A stretch of 39,311 nt of DNA, from NCBI GenBank assembly GCA_018821925.1, contig JAHJLF010000062.1:1-39311 (forward strand), written 5' to 3'. The stretch comes from Candidatus Edwardsbacteria bacterium (GTDB taxonomy: Bacteria; Edwardsbacteria; AC1; EtOH8). Of the stretch, positions 11,038 to 31,490 are shown in pieces. The position numbers were made by a program, and so were the translations under genes. The notes beneath the pieces are model-generated. The model was not told the origin of the DNA. It did not search any database and saw only the letters and a program-made list of their open reading frames with translations. Numbering within the stretch: the stretch's first letter is position 1; each line of letters opens with the position of its first letter.

Positions 11038-12975
11038 TGGCTTTTTAAGAAATATTTTAAGTTTGCTCCTTAACACCAGTTCCAGCATCAGGAAGAGCCC
11101 TGTCAGGAACAAAAAGATATTGTTTAATCCCCTTTGGCTGGCCGGCCTTTTTTCGGAGGATATCTGACGGCTCCATTTGTTTTTTCCCATGATGCCGGCC
11201 AGCTCATCGTCCTCAAGCAACGCTAAATCGGATTCTTCAGGGGGGATATTCACAGCCAGGGTTTGACCTGATTTATTTTTTAGCGTCGAATAAAACCCGG
11301 CTTTCTCCAACGGCCATTTAATCTTTCCCCGGCTGTCCGGAAGGCCGGAAATCTTTTTGCCGTCCGGGGCGGTCAGGTCCGATATATCGGCGCCGGATAG
11401 AAACTGCCCTGTCAGATAGCCGGGGTCGGCGGATTTCAACAGCCCCTCACAGGCCTGGTTCAACAGGGCCAAGAAGGCCGGATGAAAGCCGATGTCGGTC
11501 ATGCCGGGCTCGGTCCCGAACAGCCAGATGCCGGCTTTGCCCGATCCATGGTCGATCATCACTAAACCCGGAAACTTGCGTCCGATGGTAAGCAGGGCAG
11601 AGGGCCTGGCCGGCACCCGCCAGTATTTGTATATCGAGATGTGCCTCAGGTCCCTGGAGCTGATGTCCTGAAAATATTCCTTCGTCCCAAGATCAAGCGC
11701 CCCCGGCAGGGAATCCTCTGACATTCCGGTTATCCGCAGATCCGGCGATATATTTGACAACAGGCTGTTGTAATCATTGACCACCGCCCTTTCCGGCGGG
11801 ATGATTAAAAGGCCGGCGCCGTTCTTAACCGCTTCTAAAAGATCGCTTTTTATGCCCGCTATTGCGCCTCCCGCCACGATAATCAGATCCGAAGCGGCGA
11901 TAGCCTCAGGGGTGGGATGGCTTTCGATTTTAAGCTGATATCCGGCCCCCGATAATGCTTTAAAAGCCTGTTGTAAAATTCCGCCTGCCTCGGATATCAG
12001 CAATACCATAGTGTTTCCGGCCGTGTTTTGGGGAAAATAATACCTGTCGTCCAGCGGCATATCATCCCGCGAGCATTCCATAAATGTTTGCCCCTGGCCG
12101 TCCCAGCCCATACCGCCCGAAAAATATCCGCCGGAATCGGGTTTGATCTTTGACTGAAAAGCTACCCGGCCATCTTTGACCAGGCTTAGGCTCTGCTCCA
12201 GACCCGGCGCGGTTTTTCCCTGGATGATCAATCTTTTTTTAAGAGAATAGAACTTCACGTTACGCCATTCCAGGTTTTTGCCCGCCCCGCCCTTCCCGGC
12301 CTGCACCAGGTTCAGATGGGCCGTTGACTTAAGGGCCGGAAGCGGCGAGACAGCATCACCAAAACAATTTTTCCGAAGGTCGGAAAAAATCATTATTGAT
12401 GCCCCGGTCCGTCCGGCATTTGCCAGAAGAGCATCGGCTTTCAGAACAGCCCCGGCCAGATCGGTCCCCAGATCGGTCTGTTCGATGGATCTTATCTGCC
12501 TGGCCGCTTCGGCCGGATCCGCCAGGCCGCATAAAATTTTATTCCCCTGCGAGCCGCAGAGCACCGCCACCCGGCTGTCCGGGCTAAGGGATTTGATCAG
12601 CTTTAGCGCCGAGGATCGGGCCTGCGGCAATAAACTGCTGTCGCCTTCGATGGTCGACATGCTGGCCGAATTATCAATGACCAAAGCCAGGGTTGTCTCC
12701 CGGGGCGCCATCCAGGACGGCAGGGAGGCCTTCACCGACGGCCCGGCCATCAGCAGGACCAGCAGCAGCAGGATTAGCGTTCGGACCAGCAGCAGCAGCC
12801 ATTCCTGTAACCGGCTTCTTTTCCATGTTTTGGTATGGGTGGATCTCAAAAGAATGATGCTGGGAAACGGGACCACCCTGGCCTTATTGTGCCGGAGCAG
12901 ATGGATCACCAGCGGCAGGGCGGCCAAAGGCAGGAAGAACAACGCGGCGGGATTTTGGAAAGAGATGAAATTCAT
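11026..12975 (-). CDS. BatA/vWA-domain membrane protein
   Basis: This 649-residue protein begins with the BatA N-terminal module: residues 3-30 contain FQNPAALFFLPLAALPLVIHLL, and a second membrane helix lies at about 58-77. A von Willebrand factor A domain follows, with the MIDAS motif DNSAS (D101, S103, S105). The central part has alternating strands and a GATase-like segment (LLISEAGGILQQAF, then LIIVAGGAI). A final membrane helix lies near residues 620-637. Related proteins often occur with MoxR ATPases and DUF58 proteins in envelope-stress or surface-assembly operons. Here a DUF58 gene exists but is 24 kb away, and no MoxR gene is in the window. It lies 24 bases downstream of thiD. Confidence 0.85.
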   Translation of the reverse strand: MNFISFQNPAALFFLPLAALPLVIHLLRHNKARVVPFPSIILLRSTHTKTWKRSRLQEWLLLLVRTLILLLLVLLMAGPSVKASLPSWMAPRETTLALVIDNSASMSTIEGDSSLLPQARSSALKLIKSLSPDSRVAVLCGSQGNKILCGLADPAEAARQIRSIEQTDLGTDLAGAVLKADALLANAGRTGASIMIFSDLRKNCFGDAVSPLPALKSTAHLNLVQAGKGGAGKNLEWRNVKFYSLKKRLIIQGKTAPGLEQSLSLVKDGRVAFQSKIKPDSGGYFSGGMGWDGQGQTFMECSRDDMPLDDRYYFPQNTAGNTMVLLISEAGGILQQAFKALSGAGYQLKIESHPTPEAIAASDLIIVAGGAIAGIKSDLLEAVKNGAGLLIIPPERAVVNDYNSLLSNISPDLRITGMSEDSLPGALDLGTKEYFQDISSRDLRHISIYKYWRVPARPSALLTIGRKFPGLVMIDHGSGKAGIWLFGTEPGMTDIGFHPAFLALLNQACEGLLKSADPGYLTGQFLSGADISDLTAPDGKKISGLPDSRGKIKWPLEKAGFYSTLKNKSGQTLAVNIPPEESDLALLEDDELAGIMGKNKWSRQISSEKRPASQRGLNNIFLFLTGLFLMLELVLRSKLKIFLKKPLTT

Positions 12976-22325: not shown

Positions 22326-24029
22326 TTATTTTATGACTATCATTTTCTTGGAAATGCTTTGCCCGCCGGCGTTCAGTTTATAAACATACACCCCGTTGGC
22401 CACCGCCCTGCCGTTGTCGTCCCGGCCGTCCCAGGTAACGGACCCCGACCCCTCCCTCTTGTCCCTCCCCTCGAGGGGAGGGTTGGGTGGGGTCAGTGTT
22501 TTCACCAACTGCCCGGCTATGTTATAAACCGCAAGTTTTACCGGCCCATCCCCTGTCGCCTGATAACTGATAACTGTGGCCTTGTTGAACGGATTGGGAT
22601 AATTCTGCCCCAACTTTATCCCTGTCATCTGTAATCTATCATCCGGAATCTGTTCGACTCCATCCGGTCCGGTATACTTGCACAGCCAAACCATATGGCT
22701 GCTGTCAGCATAATAATTGCTTACTAAAAACTCATCCCGGCCACAACCATCTACATCACCGGCAAGAGCTACGCGTGCGCCAAGTTCATCACCCAAACCA
22801 ACACCGCCAGAATATCTTCCCAAAATATAAGCATCAGGTATATTTTTCATTAATGGCCGTCTTAACCATAGATACGCCTTGCCCTTTCCATTAAATGCCG
22901 GAGATGCTCCGGCCAGGAAATCACCCAATTTATCCCCATCGGCATAGCCGGCGGATGATGACCAGAAGCCCAACGCAGTATCCTCGCCCGTTATCGTCCA
23001 TAACGGCGCTATTTCATCGATAGTATCGCCCGGTAATAAGTAACACTTGCCTTCGCCAGAAGTTCCGGTAGTGGTAGGCCAGAACGGTGTACCGAACCAG
23101 CCAATAGCGTTATAGCCAATAGTGTCGGATTCAACAGTTGATACATTAAATCCACCTAATAGCTGATAATTGTTTTCACCATATACCCATCCATAACTTA
23201 TTGTATCAACCTTTGCACTTCCATAATAAAAATATACAGCCCCGCTGGCTGCTCCATTTATGGAACTGCCATAAGCGCCAATCAATAGATCGTCATACCC
23301 GTCACCATTATAATCGTCAACACTGCTAATGCTGGCCCCGAATTCCTCGTAAAATACCGGGCTTGAATGTCCATTTATTATGATGTCAGGAAAGGTGTTT
23401 AATCCCAATGTATCGCCATAATATACATACACACGCCCTTCACGTGTGCCGGATATCGGATAGCTAGGCGCACCCACCACCAGATCATCTATCCCGTCGC
23501 CGTTTATATCCCCGGCGGATAAGGAAGTGCCGAAAGCTGTGCTTGGTATACCGTTATATCCCCCTATTACCAGATCGGGCGTGGAATTAAGATCAACCCC
23601 TGTTCCGTAATGTATGTTCACACACCCTTTGGTTTCATTCACACCTGTGCCATAGGCATCTCCCAAGGCCAAGTCACCATAACCATCATTATTAAAATCC
23701 GCAATGCACATTGGCTGATGCGAACCGGTAGTATCATATGTTATTATCTGGCTTGGTACCGTACTTAATGCTGGGCCACCTAGGAAAATGTATACCCGGG
23801 ATTTAATCCACCCAAAAAGATCTATCACAGTATCTGTCGAGCTTACAAAATCGGAATAACCATCGCCGTTCAGATCCCCACCTGCCATTCTATAACCCCA
23901 ATAACGGCACCCACCGCCTGTATCGGGCGAGGCTTTTTGCCAGATAATATCCAGGTTGTAGGTGGTCTGGGCCGGGCTTAGGCCATAGGCTATAGCTAGC
24001 AGGCACGAGATTAAAAGCAACTTTCTCAT
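22326..24029 (-). CDS. Secreted FG-GAP repeat protein with C-terminal FlgD-like sorting domain
   Basis: The 567-residue product has a signal peptide (MRKLLLISCLLAIAYGLSPAQ) and about six FG-GAP/integrin-alpha-like repeats. Examples are DLNGDGYSDF, DFNNDGYGDL, DINGDGIDDL and DYNGDGYDDL, Ca-binding loops at about 60-90-residue spacing; the last two are degenerate. The final 85 residues are a FlgD-Ig-like domain (NYPNPFNKATVISYQ ... VYNIAGQLVKTL ... WDGRDDNGR) ending in KKMIVIK, typical of type IX-style export. Extracellular or surface location is expected. It is coupled by ATGA overlap to the small secreted gene upstream. The middle of the gene is more AT-rich than its ends. Confidence 0.88.
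   Translation of the reverse strand: MRKLLLISCLLAIAYGLSPAQTTYNLDIIWQKASPDTGGGCRYWGYRMAGGDLNGDGYSDFVSSTDTVIDLFGWIKSRVYIFLGGPALSTVPSQIITYDTTGSHQPMCIADFNNDGYGDLALGDAYGTGVNETKGCVNIHYGTGVDLNSTPDLVIGGYNGIPSTAFGTSLSAGDINGDGIDDLVVGAPSYPISGTREGRVYVYYGDTLGLNTFPDIIINGHSSPVFYEEFGASISSVDDYNGDGYDDLLIGAYGSSINGAASGAVYFYYGSAKVDTISYGWVYGENNYQLLGGFNVSTVESDTIGYNAIGWFGTPFWPTTTGTSGEGKCYLLPGDTIDEIAPLWTITGEDTALGFWSSSAGYADGDKLGDFLAGASPAFNGKGKAYLWLRRPLMKNIPDAYILGRYSGGVGLGDELGARVALAGDVDGCGRDEFLVSNYYADSSHMVWLCKYTGPDGVEQIPDDRLQMTGIKLGQNYPNPFNKATVISYQATGDGPVKLAVYNIAGQLVKTLTPPNPPLEGRDKREGSGSVTWDGRDDNGRAVANGVYVYKLNAGGQSISKKMIVIK
22363..22604. repeat. Duplicated sorting-domain DNA, copy 1
   Basis: About 242 bp encoding the C-terminal sorting domain match 24574-24815 without gaps, with about eight differences by eye. 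The stretch 22504-22604 (101 bp) appears identical to 24715-24815. The upstream parts of the two genes are unrelated. Confidence 0.92.
22441..22494. repeat. Nested palindromic element inside the sorting domain, copy 1
   Basis: A perfect 20-bp palindrome (22463-22482, centred on CTCGAG) lies inside outer arms GACCCCGACCC and GGGTGGGGTC, 54 bp in all. It is translated in frame as a Pro/Gly/charged insert (about TPPNPPLEGRDKREGSG) replacing the usual short loop between VKTL and WDGRD. It resembles protein-coding palindromic elements such as those of Rickettsia. Confidence 0.75.
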
Positions 24030-24536: not shown

Positions 24537-26540
24537 TCACCTCAAAATTATCATCTTTTTTGCCAGGCTTTTTCCGCCGGCGTTCAGTTTATAAATATAC
24601 ACCCCGTTGGCAACCGCCCGGCCGTTGTCATCCCGGCCATCCCAGGTTACGGACCCCGACCCCTCCCTCTTGTCCCTCCCCTCGAGGGGAGGGTTGGGTG
24701 GGGTCAATGTTTTTACCAACTGCCCGGCTATGTTATAAACCGCAAGTTTTACCGGCCCATCCCCTGTCGCCTGATAACTGATAACTGTGGCCTTGTTGAA
24801 CGGATTGGGATAATTTTGGTTTAACCTGATCGCTGTCCGCTGTCCCCTGTCCGCTGGTTCCGCCGCTATACCTGTTACTTGCGTAAACGAGACATCATCC
24901 CACCGATCCCAATAGGCCGTGCTGTTCACCGCCCAAATGTTCAGCTTGATCCGGGCGAATGCCGCCCCGGCCGGAGCCGCCACCGTCCCGGTGGTCAGAA
25001 AGACATATCCCGCGCTGTCGGCGCTCAGGGCGGCAGTGGTGTCGTCCAATAAAAGATTCTTATGCAGAGAATCGAACCACTGGATCCGCATCCGCATGGT
25101 GTTGCCGGCCCCGTCGTTCTTGCGCCCCCAACCAGACAGGCAGTAGTTCAGTCCCGGAGTGACCTTGACATCCTGGAACAGGAACGACAAAAATGGCACA
25201 GCCTTTCCCATGCAATCGGCCCGATGGCGCAAGGCATAACTGCCGGTGTGAACGAAATCGGTGGCGGTATCGGCCACGGCATTGTCGCCATCCAGCCAGC
25301 CGAAGGGTTTTAAAGAGTTGTTGGACGGCACCGCCACGGTGTCCCGGAAAACATTTTCCATCCCGCCGTTGACCAGCGAATCGGCCGGCAGGTTGAAACT
25401 GGTGCGCAGTGCGGTCCACAGCTCCGGGCGGCTGCCGTCGTAGGACAGGGCCCACATCCCGGTGCCGGCCAACAGGCTGTCCCACACCATCTGGTACTTG
25501 TAGCCCAGGCTGATCTCGTCGTCGTACCAGCACTGATGCCATTCCCCGTTGTTGTAATAGTACCAGGGGGTGTAGGAGGAGGCCTGCCACTGCCGGCCGT
25601 AGTCGTAGGCCAGGGTCTCGGCCTGGAAGAACATCACCGCGCTGCCGCTTCCGATGGTGGCCGATCCGGCGGTCGTCCCGACACAGGGCCAGTCATACCC
25701 GTAATAGGGCACCCCGCAGATCATCTTCTCCCGCCGGTTCCCGGAATAGACCGCATAGTCGTGGATGCTCCAGCCCACGTCGTAGCTATAGCCATCCAGC
25801 GGCGCCACCGGCCCGGTGGTGGCCGAGCCGCTCCAAAAATAATCATAGGCCATGATGAACAATCCGTCGGAATAGATGGCCAGGCTGTCGTAATCCCAGG
25901 AACCGGCCCAGTCCACCGCCGGTGTAGCCAGCGAAACGTAGGAGGCGGGATCCCAGCTATGGAAGCTGTCGGACAGTTCGTGGATGAATTTCACCATGTT
26001 CTGCTTCTGGGCCAGGGCCAGGCCCTCGAAGTCGATATTGACCCCCTCCACCCCGGCGTCCCTTACCGCGTTCAGCAGATTTTTTACCGCATTGGTGCGG
26101 AAGGAGTCGCTGGAGAGTATCGAGGTGATGGCAGAACTGCTGAAGCAGGTGCCGCACAACAGCACTTTGACCCCGTTCTTGTGGGCATGGGCGATGGTGG
26201 CCGACCAGGTGCCGGGAAAGCCGTGGCTGGTAGTGATGCTCCCGTCTCCCGCCATCTCGGCGCTGAAGCAGGCCAGGTGTGTGATCAGGTCGTAATGCAG
26301 ATACTGGTCGCTGGTCCAGTAGGGATCGTATCCCAGCACCGTCTTGCCGACTCTGGGCGATTTATCTTTGGCCAGCGGCAGGTATTTTACCTCCGGGCCC
26401 TTGATGATCAGGCTGTCGGAATAGCTTTCCGACTGGAGCTGATGGATGCTTTTATTCTGGGCCACTGCATTGGAACAGCAGACCAATAAAACAGCCAAAA
26501 TCCCGGTCGTAACCGAATATATAATGGTTTTTTCTTTCAT
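24537..26540 (-). CDS. Secreted GH18 glycoside hydrolase-like protein with C-terminal sorting domain
   Basis: The 667-residue product begins with a signal peptide (to about AVAQ, residue 28; a nearby VCC leaves a lipoprotein reading possible). A GH18 TIM barrel spans about residues 65-390: YDPYWTSDQYLHYDLITHL, then GVEGVNIDFEG with the catalytic acid E172. The first acid of the canonical DxxDxDxE motif is Glu here. Residues about 395-570 form a jelly-roll carbohydrate-binding-like region, and the last 85 residues are a FlgD-like sorting domain almost identical to that of the FG-GAP protein. Likely action is hydrolysis of, or binding to, a chitin- or peptidoglycan-like glycan outside the cell. 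It is first in a three-gene operon. Confidence 0.87.
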   Translation of the reverse strand: MKEKTIIYSVTTGILAVLLVCCSNAVAQNKSIHQLQSESYSDSLIIKGPEVKYLPLAKDKSPRVGKTVLGYDPYWTSDQYLHYDLITHLACFSAEMAGDGSITTSHGFPGTWSATIAHAHKNGVKVLLCGTCFSSSAITSILSSDSFRTNAVKNLLNAVRDAGVEGVNIDFEGLALAQKQNMVKFIHELSDSFHSWDPASYVSLATPAVDWAGSWDYDSLAIYSDGLFIMAYDYFWSGSATTGPVAPLDGYSYDVGWSIHDYAVYSGNRREKMICGVPYYGYDWPCVGTTAGSATIGSGSAVMFFQAETLAYDYGRQWQASSYTPWYYYNNGEWHQCWYDDEISLGYKYQMVWDSLLAGTGMWALSYDGSRPELWTALRTSFNLPADSLVNGGMENVFRDTVAVPSNNSLKPFGWLDGDNAVADTATDFVHTGSYALRHRADCMGKAVPFLSFLFQDVKVTPGLNYCLSGWGRKNDGAGNTMRMRIQWFDSLHKNLLLDDTTAALSADSAGYVFLTTGTVAAPAGAAFARIKLNIWAVNSTAYWDRWDDVSFTQVTGIAAEPADRGQRTAIRLNQNYPNPFNKATVISYQATGDGPVKLAVYNIAGQLVKTLTPPNPPLEGRDKREGSGSVTWDGRDDNGRAVANGVYIYKLNAGGKSLAKKMIILR
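24574..24815. repeat. Duplicated sorting-domain DNA, copy 2
   Basis: This is the gapless partner of 22363-22604, inside the GH18 gene. The codon-level identity, including silent sites, points to recent duplication or ongoing gene conversion. Confidence 0.92.
24652..24705. repeat. Nested palindromic element inside the sorting domain, copy 2
   Basis: This is an identical copy of the 54-bp nested inverted repeat, with the 20-bp palindrome at 24674-24693. It is in the same reading frame and at the same domain loop as copy 1. Confidence 0.75.
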
Positions 26541-26578: not shown

Positions 26579-26648
26579 GGAATAATTGATGTTCCAGATG
26601 TCAATTATCTTCTTGACTTTTAACTCAAAATGCCCCAAAATTCATTCT

Positions 26649-28427
26649 ATGCGCTTTTGGCACATCATATTATCATTCATACTGCTGTCAGTTTTCTCCC
26701 GGGCCTACTCACAAGAGTTGCCGGATCCCGGGGATATTGATGAATTCAGGCCTTTCACCATCCTGGCCCCTCTGCCTGATTCGGTGATCCCATCTGGGGA
26801 GGCCTTGGAGATCTCCCTGCTGCTGGAGGAGACCTCCGGTATGGATATCCACTTGCTGCTGGACGGAGAGGATATCACCACACAGACGCAAATAACCAAG
26901 GACTACCTTTTCTATCTTTCCCCGGAACCGCCGACGCCCGGCCCCCACCGGATAACCGTATTGTTCACCAGCCTGGCCGATACTGTATTCAAAAATTCCT
27001 GGGATTTCAAGGCAGCTGCTTTGGATACCGTACCCATCGGGCCGATCAAGATACCTCTTGATATCTCCCTTACCGCCGGTATGTTCTATTCGCAGTGCAA
27101 CAAGGATACAGCGGGTTTGAGCCTGAGCTACCCCATCGGCTGGCATCCCTCCGGCGACGTGAATTTATCGGGACAACTGGACGGCGGCTTTTTCAATTCC
27201 TACCTATCCTACGATCCGGCCTACGACAAATACCTTCACGGACTGCTGCAGTTCGAGAATTCCTCCTTCGGACTGTCCGCCGGAGAGTTCTACCCCGAGC
27301 TGTCAACCCTGGTATTCTCCGGAACCTCTCCCCTGGGGCTGCTGGCCACCTGGCAGAATAAAAAGACCAGTATCCTGGGCACCGCTTGCCGCACCCAGCC
27401 GGCCGACACCCTGTTTCAGACCTATGCCCAGTATCTCTACGGCGGCCGTATAAAAAGATCCCTGGCCGACAGCCTCTGGCTGTCCGGGGGATACCTTTAC
27501 GGATATGATCAGCCGGGCTCCCTGCCGGATTCGGTGCGCTTCAGGTCATCCACCTATATCTACAACGACACCCTGACCGGCTTCTCCGATACCCTGATAA
27601 CCGTGGACACCTTGTTATCGGGAAAGAACCGCCTCTCGTGGTTCTCCCTGGAGTGGACGATCAGCGGAGCCAGATTCCGCAGCGAGTATGCCGGATCGGG
27701 CTTCCTGCCGGACTCCTCGGCCGGATACATCAATGACCACAGCTATCTTTTGGGAGTAAAGAAAGGGATGGGACGCCACTGGCTTAATCTGGAATACATC
27801 TCCTGGGGACAAAATTTCAAAAGCTTTGGAAATCCTTATCTGGAAACAGCCAAGAACGAACTCCTGGGGACGGCGGATCTCAGGTTCCCCGGCAGTCTGT
27901 CGGCCAGGCTGGACGGCTCGGTGTACAAGATCTTCACCGATTCCGCCTCCGGCAGCAGCTTTAAACTGGGTGGTGGTATGAATTATGCCTGGGGGCGGCT
28001 CACCTCGGCCAGCCTGCGGCTGGATTACAACTACCGGCCGTATATCACTTATCTTTATCAGAACCGAAGCCTGAGCCTGAGCACCGTGACCAAACTGATG
28101 TCCCTCTCAGTCATATCCTCCTATTCCTACTCCTCAAGTTCCGGTATCAGTCTGACCCAGTCTCATAACGGAATGTTGGGCATCTCCCGCTATTTGATGG
28201 CCGACAGATTATATATCCAGGCCTCAGGCCAGCACTATCAGGTTTTTGACAGCTACGGGCTGACCGACCAGGCCCGGACCACCGCACAGTTGAGAGCATC
28301 GTGGCAGGCCTCGATCCATACCGGAATCATCTTTGATTGCCGCAATATACTGCACCGGGACCGGGTCACGCCGGATAAAAATTATCGCCAACAGCTGGCA
28401 TCGCTGTCGGTTAGCTATAGATTTTAG
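26649..28427 (+). CDS. Outer-membrane beta-barrel protein with N-terminal Ig-like domain
   Basis: I start at ATG 26649 because it gives a clean signal peptide (MRFWHIILSFILLSVFSRAYSQ); an upstream ATG at 26586 only adds non-signal sequence. Of the 592 residues, about 40-122 form an Ig-like domain (HLLLDGEDIT, PGPHRITVLF, SWDF). The rest is alternating polar/aromatic strands with frequent Tyr/Ser/Leu, ending LSVSYRF, a C-terminal Phe beta-signal. This suggests a barrel of 20 or more strands inserted by BAM. No TonB plug is evident. It is the first gene of the plus-strand block, 156 bases before the ECF sigma gene. No ribosome site is obvious. Transport or anchoring roles are possible; function unknown. 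Confidence 0.72.
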   Translation: MRFWHIILSFILLSVFSRAYSQELPDPGDIDEFRPFTILAPLPDSVIPSGEALEISLLLEETSGMDIHLLLDGEDITTQTQITKDYLFYLSPEPPTPGPHRITVLFTSLADTVFKNSWDFKAAALDTVPIGPIKIPLDISLTAGMFYSQCNKDTAGLSLSYPIGWHPSGDVNLSGQLDGGFFNSYLSYDPAYDKYLHGLLQFENSSFGLSAGEFYPELSTLVFSGTSPLGLLATWQNKKTSILGTACRTQPADTLFQTYAQYLYGGRIKRSLADSLWLSGGYLYGYDQPGSLPDSVRFRSSTYIYNDTLTGFSDTLITVDTLLSGKNRLSWFSLEWTISGARFRSEYAGSGFLPDSSAGYINDHSYLLGVKKGMGRHWLNLEYISWGQNFKSFGNPYLETAKNELLGTADLRFPGSLSARLDGSVYKIFTDSASGSSFKLGGGMNYAWGRLTSASLRLDYNYRPYITYLYQNRSLSLSTVTKLMSLSVISSYSYSSSSGISLTQSHNGMLGISRYLMADRLYIQASGQHYQVFDSYGLTDQARTTAQLRASWQASIHTGIIFDCRNILHRDRVTPDKNYRQQLASLSVSYRF

Positions 28428-28535
28428 GAACCATTGGCGGACAGGCGGACTCTAACCAATATAGTAAATTTCTAAAGATACTTAACTCCTTGCTCAATAT
28501 AGATTTAGCCTCATGGATCGATCTTAATATTCACC

Positions 28536-28564
28536 GGAACTTTTCAGTAACAATATTACTCTAA
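28536..28564 (+). promoter_or_regulatory. ECF/sigma-E-type promoter candidate
   Basis: GGAACTT (28536-28542) and TCTAA (28560-28564) are separated by 17 bases. This matches the GGAAC...TCTRA pattern of many ECF promoters and lies just before the sigma gene, suggesting autoregulation. The leader would be about a dozen bases, without a Shine-Dalgarno. Confidence 0.5.
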
Positions 28565-28583
28565 CCTACAGATAATCGACACT

Positions 28584-29111
28584 ATGCCTGAAAAACAGCG
28601 GCCGGAATTTGAAGAAGTACTGGATAAATACGGACAGAAGCTGTTCAACCTGATGCTCCGGCTGACCGGCAACTACCACTGGGCCCAGGATCTGACCCAG
28701 GATGTTCTTTTGATAGCCCACCGCGAATACCACAAGTTCCGGGGGGACTCCGATGTCTTCACCTGGATATACCGCATCGCCGTCAACCATCAACGCCGGC
28801 AGGCCCGCAAGATGCGGGTCCGAAGCTGGCTGGGCTTCGAGGACGTCTCCAGTGATGTGTTGTCCACCGATATTACGGCTGCCGACCCGGCCGAAAGCAG
28901 CGAAAGAACCAAGGTGGTGGCCCGGGCGGTATCCGCCCTGCCGGAGGATTTTAAAGAGACCGTGGTGCTGCATTATTTTCAGGACCAAAGCTGCCAACAG
29001 ATCGCCAAAATAATGAACTGCTCGGAGGGAACAGTAAAATCCAGACTGTGGCGGGGCCGTAAGATCCTGGCCCAGAAACTAAAAGGTTACGTATCAGAAA
29101 CAGGAGTGTGA
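28584..29111 (+). CDS. ECF-family RNA polymerase sigma factor
   Basis: The 175-residue protein is a standard ECF sigma factor. Region 2 spans about residues 10-75: YGQKLFNLMLRLTGNYHWAQDLTQDV for core and -10 binding, then FTWIYRIAVNHQRRQARK for melting. An acidic linker follows, and region 4 is at about 117-168 (LPEDFKETVVLHYFQDQS, QQIAKIMNCSEGTVKSRLWRGRK helix-turn-helix for -35 recognition). It would redirect RNA polymerase to a small envelope regulon. The next gene, 4 bases on, is a matching zinc-finger anti-sigma. An ECF-type promoter candidate upstream suggests positive feedback. Confidence 0.95.
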   Translation: MPEKQRPEFEEVLDKYGQKLFNLMLRLTGNYHWAQDLTQDVLLIAHREYHKFRGDSDVFTWIYRIAVNHQRRQARKMRVRSWLGFEDVSSDVLSTDITAADPAESSERTKVVARAVSALPEDFKETVVLHYFQDQSCQQIAKIMNCSEGTVKSRLWRGRKILAQKLKGYVSETGV

Positions 29112-29115
29112 TAAA

Positions 29116-29814
29116 ATGGATTGTCGAAAAATCGAAAAATATCTGCAAGAAAACCCCGGGGCCCCGCTGCCCGGGGAGCTGCAGGAACATCTGACAAGAT
29201 GCCAGGACTGCTCCCTGCGATGGCAGGAGCAGAGGGCCCTGAGCGATGTTCTAAAAACATTTCCTCAGGCGGAGCTTCCGGCCTACCTGGGCGCCAAAGC
29301 CCTGGCCCGGCTGGAGGGACGGCAGAGGGTCTCCGGCAAAAAGATGCTGGAGCCGGGCTGGCTGACCCTGGCCGCCCCGGCCATGGCCCTGATCGTGGCT
29401 TTCTCCGCCCTGGTGATGCGTTACGAATATAGTCCTCAATACACAGACATTCCGAACCGCCCTGTATCTATCCAGAACCAAGGTAATAATACCGCCGCTC
29501 CGGGGTCTGTCCAAAATCAGCCATCAAATATTTTATCTCAGATATATCCGGTCTGGCCGTCCGACCAGGATGTGGTCGGCCGCGGGGATCTGACCATTAT
29601 GGCCTCGCTGTATCCCGACCATCAGGGAAAGGTGCAGGTCCTGCTGGACGATATCGATGTCTCGGCCGGATCGACCATCAGCCGTCAGCATATCTCCTAT
29701 GATCCCAAGTCCCTGGGGGCCGGAGAACATATGGTCAGGGTAGTGCTGCAGCAGGCTGATGGAAGCTATCAAACGGCCAGTTGGCGCTTTTATCTGCTGG
29801 AGGAACCATCATGA
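29116..29814 (+). CDS. Zinc-finger anti-sigma factor with periplasmic Ig-like tail
   Basis: The 232-residue protein has an N-terminal zf-HC2 anti-sigma domain with HX3CX2C (H25, C29, C32). One membrane helix follows (about 82-101), then a Gln/Asn/Pro-rich linker. The periplasmic domain at about 155-230 has the pattern VQVLLDDIDVS, LGAGEHMVRVVL, SWRFYL. The same pattern occurs in the barrel protein upstream. The N-domain should hold the sigma factor at the membrane until the periplasmic part receives a signal. GGAGTG precedes the ATG. Its stop overlaps the start of the Ig-repeat gene (ATGA), so the genes are coupled. Confidence 0.9.
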   Translation: MDCRKIEKYLQENPGAPLPGELQEHLTRCQDCSLRWQEQRALSDVLKTFPQAELPAYLGAKALARLEGRQRVSGKKMLEPGWLTLAAPAMALIVAFSALVMRYEYSPQYTDIPNRPVSIQNQGNNTAAPGSVQNQPSNILSQIYPVWPSDQDVVGRGDLTIMASLYPDHQGKVQVLLDDIDVSAGSTISRQHISYDPKSLGAGEHMVRVVLQQADGSYQTASWRFYLLEEPS

Positions 29815-31490
29815 AAAAGATGCATTTAATACTGATCCCATTGCTGCTGATATCAGCGGCAGCTCTGCAGGCCGCCGGGCTTCAGGTCTCGCCCAATCCG
29901 GCAGAGGTCCAGGTCAATACTGCCGTTGCTTTCACCATCCAGGGCTTGGAGCCCGGTGGGTCGTTAAACTGGGAGGTCGTTCCGGCCACTCTGGGAAATA
30001 TTGACCAAAGCGGGTTTTTCACTGCATCCGGCAAGCCGGGCCGGGGGATGGTACGGGCCATAGCCAAAAACAAGGAAGGCCGGACCGTGCTGGGACACGC
30101 CATGATAAAAGTTTTGGGGAACAAACCCGGCCGCCTTACGGTATCGGTATCGCCGGCCAGGGCCGAACTCAAGATCGGCCAAACCCTGCGTTTTACCGCT
30201 CGGATTATGCTGCCAGATGAAAATATCAAAACCGAATGGCTGGTCATCCCCAACGATCTGGGAACCATCGATGCCCAGGGCGACTTTACCGCCAACGGCG
30301 CCGGGAAAGGCCGGATCGTGGCCCTGGCCAAGGGACCAGGAAAGTATGGTTTGGGGCAGGCTCAGATATCTGTCCGACCTTCCGGCAAGGTCTCCGATCT
30401 TTCAGTGGTTGTTTCTCCTAAGAGAATCAAGCTACAGCCGAAAACCCGGATCCGGCTGACCGTTCAGGTCCAGGATCCGGAGGGCGAAACCGTCAGAGCC
30501 AGGCTCAGATACACCCTGTCTCCTCCGGAGCTGGGAACCATCGACCAGGATGGAAATTTCACCGCCGGAGAAAAGGCCGGGCTGGGCGTTATCAAGGTTG
30601 AGGCCGCCTCCGGATACGCCTTTGGCAGCGACCGCGCTTTTGTCATAATCTCCGAAAAAAGCAACCGTTACCAGATCAAGATCAAACCCCGCCAGGTGGT
30701 GCTGGAGGCGAAATCCAGCTCTAAATTCGAGGTTGAGGTGTGGGACGAAAACGGCAGTTCGGTGATTGTCCCCGCCCTCGACTGGAAGGTGATCCCCGAA
30801 GGCCTGGGCTCGATCTCCCCCCAGGGGCTGTTCACTGCGGGAGACCGGACCCTGTCCGGCAAAATAGTAGTTCAACTGCCGGCCGAATTCGGCCGGAGCA
30901 GGGATGCCGCCTCGGTCAAGATACAAAGCCAGGGACGGAACACCATCCGGATAAACCCGCCCAAGACCAGCCTGAAGCCAGGTCAGATGCTCCAGTTCTC
31001 CGCCGTCATAACTGACAGCCGGGGCAAGCCGGCAGGAGATCAGCGCATCATCTGGAAACTGCAGCCGGAGAATCTCGGCATCATCACACCTCAAGGTCTG
31101 TTCACTGCCGGCGCAGCAGCCAGGTCGGGCATCGTCATCGCCGAACTTCCCCAGGAATTCGGAGCAGGCCGAGCAATCGCTCCGATCACCATCAGCAGCT
31201 ACCAGGTCAAGATCAACGCCCCGCCCAATCAGTATAATATCCACACCGGGGAACAGATCCTCTTTGCCGCATCGGTGCGCGATGCCAACGGAAACGACCT
31301 GACAGCATCGGCCGCTTTTGAATGGGACATAAAATCCTCGATCCTTGGATTTGGCAATATCGACCAGAGCACCGGCCTGTTCCGGGCCGGGCAGCCCTCT
31401 AAGCTGCCGGCCGATGGTTATATAATGGTCCGGGTTTTTATCAATGGGCTGCTGGCGGGAACAGATGGAATAAAAATAACCATCAGATAA
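29811..31490 (+). CDS. Secreted protein of six BIG-like Ig repeats
   Basis: ATG 29811 has GGAGG 8 bases upstream and overlaps the anti-sigma stop; the longer frame from 29781 lies inside that gene. The 559-residue protein has a signal peptide (MKKMHLILIPLLLISAAALQAA). Six repeats of about 90 residues follow, each with the pattern LGxI...GxFTA (near residues 61, 150, 241, 332, 422 and 512). BIG2-type Ig domains are common in surface adhesins and periplasmic assembly factors. There is no sorting domain, LPXTG or membrane anchor, so it may stay periplasmic or be held by partners such as the barrel protein. Likely the main structural output of the ECF operon. Confidence 0.85.
   Translation: MKKMHLILIPLLLISAAALQAAGLQVSPNPAEVQVNTAVAFTIQGLEPGGSLNWEVVPATLGNIDQSGFFTASGKPGRGMVRAIAKNKEGRTVLGHAMIKVLGNKPGRLTVSVSPARAELKIGQTLRFTARIMLPDENIKTEWLVIPNDLGTIDAQGDFTANGAGKGRIVALAKGPGKYGLGQAQISVRPSGKVSDLSVVVSPKRIKLQPKTRIRLTVQVQDPEGETVRARLRYTLSPPELGTIDQDGNFTAGEKAGLGVIKVEAASGYAFGSDRAFVIISEKSNRYQIKIKPRQVVLEAKSSSKFEVEVWDENGSSVIVPALDWKVIPEGLGSISPQGLFTAGDRTLSGKIVVQLPAEFGRSRDAASVKIQSQGRNTIRINPPKTSLKPGQMLQFSAVITDSRGKPAGDQRIIWKLQPENLGIITPQGLFTAGAAARSGIVIAELPQEFGAGRAIAPITISSYQVKINAPPNQYNIHTGEQILFAASVRDANGNDLTASAAFEWDIKSSILGFGNIDQSTGLFRAGQPSKLPADGYIMVRVFINGLLAGTDGIKITIR

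Follow-up and report, generated by a model that had tools for sequence, protein, structure and literature searches.

A candidate trans-envelope ECF signalling module in Edwardsbacteria, with related Ig-like domains in an outer-membrane barrel and an anti-sigma factor

How might a cell report events at its outer membrane to a sigma factor when no TonB-dependent receptor is at hand? Most good descriptions of such signalling, from outer membrane to sigma factor, concern TonB-dependent siderophore transducers. The question is raised by four genes within a window of 39,311 nucleotides, this being the whole stretch of DNA analysed, contig 62 of a 2.44 Mb draft genome of Candidatus Edwardsbacteria. 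At positions 26649–31490 of the plus strand, these encode an outer-membrane barrel protein, an ECF sigma factor, an anti-sigma factor and a Big_2 protein. A sequence-only reading of the window had proposed that only these four genes are on the plus strand, and all other accepted genes of the window do lie on the minus strand. We conclude that the module is real, conserved and coherent; its best reading is ECF signalling across the envelope with new parts.

Components of the module and the Ig-like domain common to two of them

The first gene (26649–28427, plus strand) encodes a protein of 592 aa with a signal peptide, assigned to the outer-membrane beta-barrels from its AF2 model, Foldseek matches and orthologues. 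In the model, an Ig-like N-terminal domain (residues 36–122; 26754–27014, plus strand) precedes some two dozen long strands, and the last residue is Phe. The Foldseek matches were all outer-membrane barrels (ushers, porins, LptD), with TM about 0.2–0.45 and 8–20 Å rmsd, and because of these values we claim no specific function for the barrel. It matched no family in Pfam or NCBIfam, and a PDB sequence search gave no match. A TonB-dependent receptor was considered and rejected, as neither Pfam nor NCBIfam gave a plug, STN or receptor match.

The second gene (28584–29111, plus strand; 175 aa) encodes a sigma factor with Pfam matches to Sigma70_r2 (1.3e-11) and Sigma70_r4_2 (4.8e-13). Pfam finds regions 2 and 4 alone, with no sigma3, and there is a GGAAC-type -35 at its own promoter, which together place it among the ECF sigma factors. 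After a gap of 4 bp comes the gene for the anti-sigma factor (29116–29814, plus strand; 232 aa). This identification, made earlier from the letters alone, is supported by a profile match to RsiW (5wuq; E 5.7e-5, positions 19–74) and by the zinc anti-sigma motif Hx3Cx2C at residues 25–32. An NCBIfam antisigma match (E 4e-5) is below that model's cut-off, and Pfam zf-HC2 was not found over its cut-off in this protein. By sequence it is a class I anti-sigma factor (ASDI), having an RsiW-related N-terminal domain and a gene directly after that of the sigma factor. Its AF2 model is helical at the N-terminus; a long helix at about 83–104 (TM), a poorly ordered linker and a beta-sandwich at residues 141–228 (29536–29799, plus strand; pLDDT about 83–94) follow. 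The sandwich is the predicted periplasmic Ig-like tail, for which Foldseek returned CopC, SGBP-B and other Ig-like folds; neither Pfam nor NCBIfam matched the tail over cut-off. The anti-sigma stop codon overlaps, in an ATGA, the start codon of the last gene (29811–31490, plus strand), which encodes an exported protein of 559 aa (Pfam Big_2, 5.6e-15). Six Big units of about 91 aa can be counted in it, the number of Ig repeats first proposed.

The sequence-only reading had also pointed to three motifs in the same order in the barrel protein and the anti-sigma factor. They are present as claimed: LLDDIDVS, AGEHMVRV and SWRF begin at residues 176, 202 and 222 of the anti-sigma factor, and LLDGEDIT, PGPHRITV and SWDF at residues 70, 97 and 117 of the barrel protein. 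None of 20,000 shuffles of the barrel protein held the ordered triple, and BLASTP of barrel against anti-sigma factor gave E 0.002. Profile comparison, a check set beforehand, upheld the similarity of the two domains (hhalign 97%, E 4.5e-11); the same comparison of the two families gave no signal for the rest of the barrel or for the anti-sigma N-terminus. The tail was also recovered unprompted by a barrel profile in two relatives (G003 and G007) and by the window's barrel in another (G009). A joint profile of the domain (E ≤ 1e-4) has exactly two matches in each of ten Edwardsbacteria genomes, always the barrel and the anti-sigma factor. For Edwardsbacteria we reject the idea that this is a ubiquitous Ig repeat, because the joint profile finds only these two proteins per genome; in other lineages, relatives are found in other exported proteins as well. 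From these profile comparisons, we conclude that the Ig-like domains at the anti-sigma tail and the barrel N-terminus are homologous.

Conservation in Edwardsbacteria and a second phylum

The Edwardsbacteria sample comprised ten genomes from four genera (g1–g4), g1 being that of the window. Orthologues of the barrel, and with them the sigma factor, anti-sigma factor and Big_2 protein, are found in 10/10 genomes and in all four genera. In two drafts (G008 and G009), a contig ends in or beside the barrel gene, and linkage is shown less directly there. In g2, g3 and g4, a fifth gene lies between barrel and sigma and encodes an exported protein of about 490 aa with a FecR domain. The window's genus has kept the promoter of this gene, but no full-length copy of the gene was found in it.

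Over the domain at large, the joint profile was matched in 47 of 386 widely spread genomes. In a second phylum, 15 of 20 genomes match it, and the matches are usually the same pair, about 2.6 kb apart. In one family of that phylum (f70), the module is complete, and the three loci read have the four-gene order and the shared domain of the window. The barrels of the two phyla match each other at 99.2% (E 1.7e-19). The second-phylum sigma factors are 38–45% identical to that of the window (112–136 bits), and the sigma paralogues within Edwardsbacteria score at most 82 bits, below the second-phylum sigma factors. The anti-sigma factors there keep the Ig tail and are without the zinc motif, which class I anti-sigma factors may lack (PMC7406223). 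The Big_2 orthologue keeps its place in both phyla. Conservation of the barrel gene beside the sigma pair, on which the earlier proposal depended, thus holds in Edwardsbacteria and in the second phylum.

In a tree of the domain, one clade (support 95/93) unites the anti-sigma tails of both phyla; tails and barrel domains from one phylum do not fall together. This separation is expected of old co-evolving partners, but also of old unrelated use. Modest support (82/76) joins the ECF-linked barrel domains to the tails and separates them from other Ig domains.

Promoters and predicted targets

Two exact copies of an ECF promoter motif lie between the barrel and sigma genes. Copy 2, GGAACT-N17-CTCTAA (28536–28564, plus strand), is 19 bp before the sigma start codon; it is conserved in g1, and the motif precedes sigma in most other Edwardsbacteria. 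Copy 1, GGAACC-N17-CTCTAA (28427–28455, plus strand), begins at the last base of the barrel stop codon, which is the position of the FecR-gene promoter in g2–g4; its -35 and -10 are kept in four g1 genomes and the spacer varies. Because of this position, and of hexamers kept around a variable spacer, we take copy 1 to be the promoter of the lost gene, now serving as an extra promoter of the sigma operon. Shuffling leads one to expect 0.29 sites even when one mismatch is allowed.

In 14 genomes of the second phylum, the motif before sigma is GGAACA-N17-CTCTAA, with ACA or a close variant of it. Since GGAACY-N17-CTCTAA or its counterpart stands before sigma in both phyla, the module is predicted to be autoregulated. 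This bears on the earlier suggestion that the Big_2 protein is the structural output of the system: that it is an output is supported by the overlap of its gene with the anti-sigma gene behind an autoregulated promoter, and ‘structural’ is plausible. The barrel gene has a promoter of a different kind, a sigma70-like TTGACT-N17-CAAAAT (26613–26641, plus strand) 7 nt before its ATG, and relatives from each of the four genera have TTGACT-N17-CANNAT in this position. No ECF motif was found at the barrel promoter in Edwardsbacteria. The barrel is therefore not a target there and, having its own sigma70-like promoter, should be present before induction.

The ten Edwardsbacteria genomes have 33 exact sites; as controls, the reversed pattern occurs 4 times and an N18 spacer 5 times. 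Each genome has several ECF sigma factors, so the assignment of distant promoters to this one depends on their match to its own promoter. Most of the non-module sites examined are followed after 27–92 bp by the start of a gene for an exported protein (a lipoprotein of roughly 305 aa, a 170-aa repeat protein or a 173-aa protein); one site in G008 is not before an exported protein. The lipoprotein is present in eight Edwardsbacteria genomes, and the motif lies upstream in 8/8 (six exact, two with one change). Its gene is between FecR and sigma in G005 and just after the Big_2 gene in G009. In eight second-phylum genomes, a further site precedes a lipoprotein of roughly 303 aa, mostly divergent from the barrel, and in most of these eight the lipoprotein is inside or beside the module. 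The looser pattern used for that phylum gave 28 sites against 14 for its reversed control, and the evidence there is therefore the position before sigma and the lipoprotein, not the count. The lipoprotein families of the two phyla are homologous over their length (99%, E 3.6e-18). As the lipoprotein played no part in finding the second phylum, it serves as an independent check. We conclude that it is a conserved predicted target of the module, as judged from promoter sequences; the motif in turn offers a predicted regulon for uncultured phyla. The lipoprotein target, the FecR-domain gene of the relatives and the two promoter copies of the window are additions to what the sequence-only reading had noticed.

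Signalling across the envelope and its alternatives

The anti-sigma factors of siderophore signalling terminate in an STN subdomain, structurally homologous to the signalling domain of the transducer, and the two bind (PMC7186176). PupR and PupB, for example, have a common STN fold and bind each other (PMC7186176), and the signalling domain of FoxA binds and protects FoxR (PMC11637429). The present module is like FecA/FecR signalling in that the barrel N-terminal domain and the anti-sigma C-terminal domain have a fold in common, by the hhalign comparison given above. It is unlike FecA/FecR, PupB/PupR and FoxA/FoxR in using an Ig-like domain instead of STN. It also differs from FecA/FecR in that none of the TonB plug, receptor and STN models matches the barrel, and in that the anti-sigma domain is RsiW-like and class I, not FecR-type. 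FecR (PF04773) had no match on the anti-sigma factor; where present, it is on the separate exported protein. With no TonB transducer, and no FecR domain on the anti-sigma factor, the module is therefore like cell-surface signalling in its logic rather than a member of the FecA/FecR family. Its anti-sigma domain, zinc motif and single TM helix are like those of the RsiW/SigW class I anti-sigma factors (PMC7406223), from which it differs in an Ig-like tail common to a neighbouring barrel.

The RsgI/SigI biomass sensors of clostridia show a likeness, in that their anti-sigma factor has a sensor domain outside the cell, and domains of this kind occur in secreted proteins too. They differ in that SigI is not an ECF sigma factor, the cells are without an outer membrane and there is no barrel. 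In literature searches, no paper was found that joins anti-sigma, immunoglobulin-like domain and outer membrane. The earlier statement that no described system has this composition agrees with these searches, but in function PupB/PupR is a close analogue of the architecture (PMC7186176). The conserved gene set suggests a previously undescribed route from the cell surface to genes. If this is true, domain sharing between barrel and anti-sigma factor would be a repeated solution, the same logic having been built from unrelated parts.

We think it probable that the four genes form a dedicated ECF signalling module across the envelope, with FecA/FecR-like logic and non-TonB, Ig-based parts; its topology, docking and proteolysis are inferred. 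The barrel would lie in the outer membrane, its N-terminal Ig-like domain reaching into the periplasm. The anti-sigma factor would span the inner membrane, hold the ECF sigma factor through its class I domain and project the homologous Ig-like tail on a linker of roughly 40 residues. Once free, the sigma factor would transcribe its own operon (sigma, anti-sigma and Big_2 protein) from GGAACY-N17-CTCTAA, together with the conserved exported lipoprotein, the FecR-domain protein where present and, in the window's genus, two small exported proteins. The sequence-only reading had suggested that the anti-sigma factor may sense barrel assembly or compete with the barrel for a ligand; by analogy with the siderophore systems, docking of one Ig-like domain on the other appears at least as likely.

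Ig-like domains are common adhesive modules, and shared ancestry therefore need not mean contact. We regard it as possible, if rather unlikely, that the locus is instead an envelope-stress module. Its tail would then respond to surface proteins that are misfolded or unassembled, or would bind the same ligand in the form of cell wall or glycan, without touching the barrel, which would simply be a co-inherited client. Almost all predicted targets are exported proteins, Ig-, CopC- and SGBP-like folds often bind ligands, and RseA/RpoE is the textbook case of sensing outer-membrane protein assembly (PMC8103513), all of which would suit such a role. However, the barrel in Edwardsbacteria has no ECF promoter and hence is not a target, and a generic sensor needs no tail related to one particular barrel and kept adjacent to it in two phyla.

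A class I anti-sigma factor acting alone could also answer to something else, or to the lipoprotein or the Big_2 protein. Either of these two proteins might regulate the anti-sigma factor directly and as feedback, in the style of RseB on RseA, with the barrel as their site of export or anchoring. The Big_2 gene does overlap the anti-sigma gene and holds the same place in both phyla, and in several genomes the lipoprotein, which has the common promoter, is encoded within the module or next to it. We nevertheless consider this improbable, since genes behind an autoregulated promoter are more simply outputs, and neither protein matched the joint Ig profile, the Big_2 units being of a different Ig family. 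It is very improbable that the shared domain is a coincidence, with generic exported Ig-like domains recruited separately and not functionally linked, as their occurrence in other exported proteins of other lineages might suggest, because each Edwardsbacteria genome has only the two matches, the pairing is kept in the second phylum with the same promoter, and the ECF-linked domains group apart in the tree, if with modest support.

Returning to signalling from barrel to sigma factor through the paired Ig-like domains, we note that the barrel family may have a wider use. In at least seven loci of other lineages, a relative of the barrel is in a row with a CHASE2 protein, identified by Pfam as a CHASE2-cyclase in the three complete loci scanned, and six of the loci also have a FecR-domain protein and a conserved protein of roughly 400 aa. 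Against the Edwardsbacteria barrel, the barrels of these loci score 96% (E 4e-9) in an alignment that covers about half of that protein, so that kinship is likely but less secure. Linkage of FecR and CHASE2 has been described (PMC9239204, PMC5192318), and in such clusters of other phyla the same barrel family stands between the FecR-domain protein and the CHASE2 cyclase. In Sinorhizobium, the outer-membrane barrel NsrA acts upstream of CHASE2 cyclases (PMC13001267); we liken it to the present barrel by role alone, not by homology. Unlike FecR–CHASE2 and NsrA/CyaD, the transducer here is an ECF sigma/anti-sigma pair. No CHASE2 cyclase lies beside the barrel in the window's module, and in the one Edwardsbacteria genome examined (G001) a single CHASE2 gene is found elsewhere, with no barrel or FecR neighbour.

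Because the same barrel family stands beside FecR and CHASE2 cyclases elsewhere, one front end appears to serve different transducers. More tentatively, and with somewhat less than even confidence, we propose that this is barrel-ECF signalling of a second, independently assembled kind, in which Ig–Ig docking takes the place of STN–STN docking and a widespread non-TonB barrel acts as an interchangeable front end for CHASE2 cyclases and ECF sigma factors. The FecR–CHASE2 link suggests a common barrel front end with exchangeable transducers, and would thereby provide a handle on what FecR–CHASE2 systems sense.

Exported products behind the ECF motif

In the genome that holds the window (G000), the ~305-aa exported lipoprotein that is the predicted target of the module's sigma factor is encoded by two tandem copies (G000:C26:15275-17187; L144, L162), with the ECF motif, GGAACY-N17-CTCTAA, immediately 5' of the first copy only. 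The motif also lies upstream of genes for two smaller exported proteins. One, of 170 aa (L140, G000:C65, 3998-4600; L146, G002:C5), consists of charged near-repeats (EGDSLKVKNEIKTKNQGEETQLR...). The other, of 173 aa, is encoded on the minus strand (L141, G000:C77, 3630-4148) and has a high content of W, Y and H residues (YGGYWWRFHHNRWYRA); the motif precedes its gene in all four genomes of the window's genus, g1. Pfam searches with the 170-aa and 173-aa proteins returned no family.

Start of the barrel transcript

In the region upstream of the barrel gene (window 26613-26649), the sigma70-like -10 element stops ~7 nt 5' of the ATG, and in the relatives L042, L044, L045 and L048 the barrel -10 element is likewise near the ATG. 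Because the element ends so near the start codon, the barrel mRNA may be leaderless.

Neighbouring genes and a possible link to secretion

In genus g3 (genome G005; L043, 6361-11200), two genes lie 5' of the module on its strand: one is PorV-like (Pfam PorV, 7.4e-9), and the other encodes a secreted protein that matches Por_Secre_tail. An exact ECF motif occupies 11172-11200. A link between the g3 module and type IX-like secretion is possible.

In G246 (family f100), the gene for a barrel relative that carries the Ig domain is followed by a Big_2-like gene (L099, 7330-11000), and no sigma pair was detected near it. This is possibly an intermediate arrangement.

In the window, a GH18 family protein (24537-26540) and an FG-GAP protein (22326-24029), both encoded on the minus strand, have in common a C-terminal sorting domain (FlgD_ig/Por_Secre_tail) with 82% identity.
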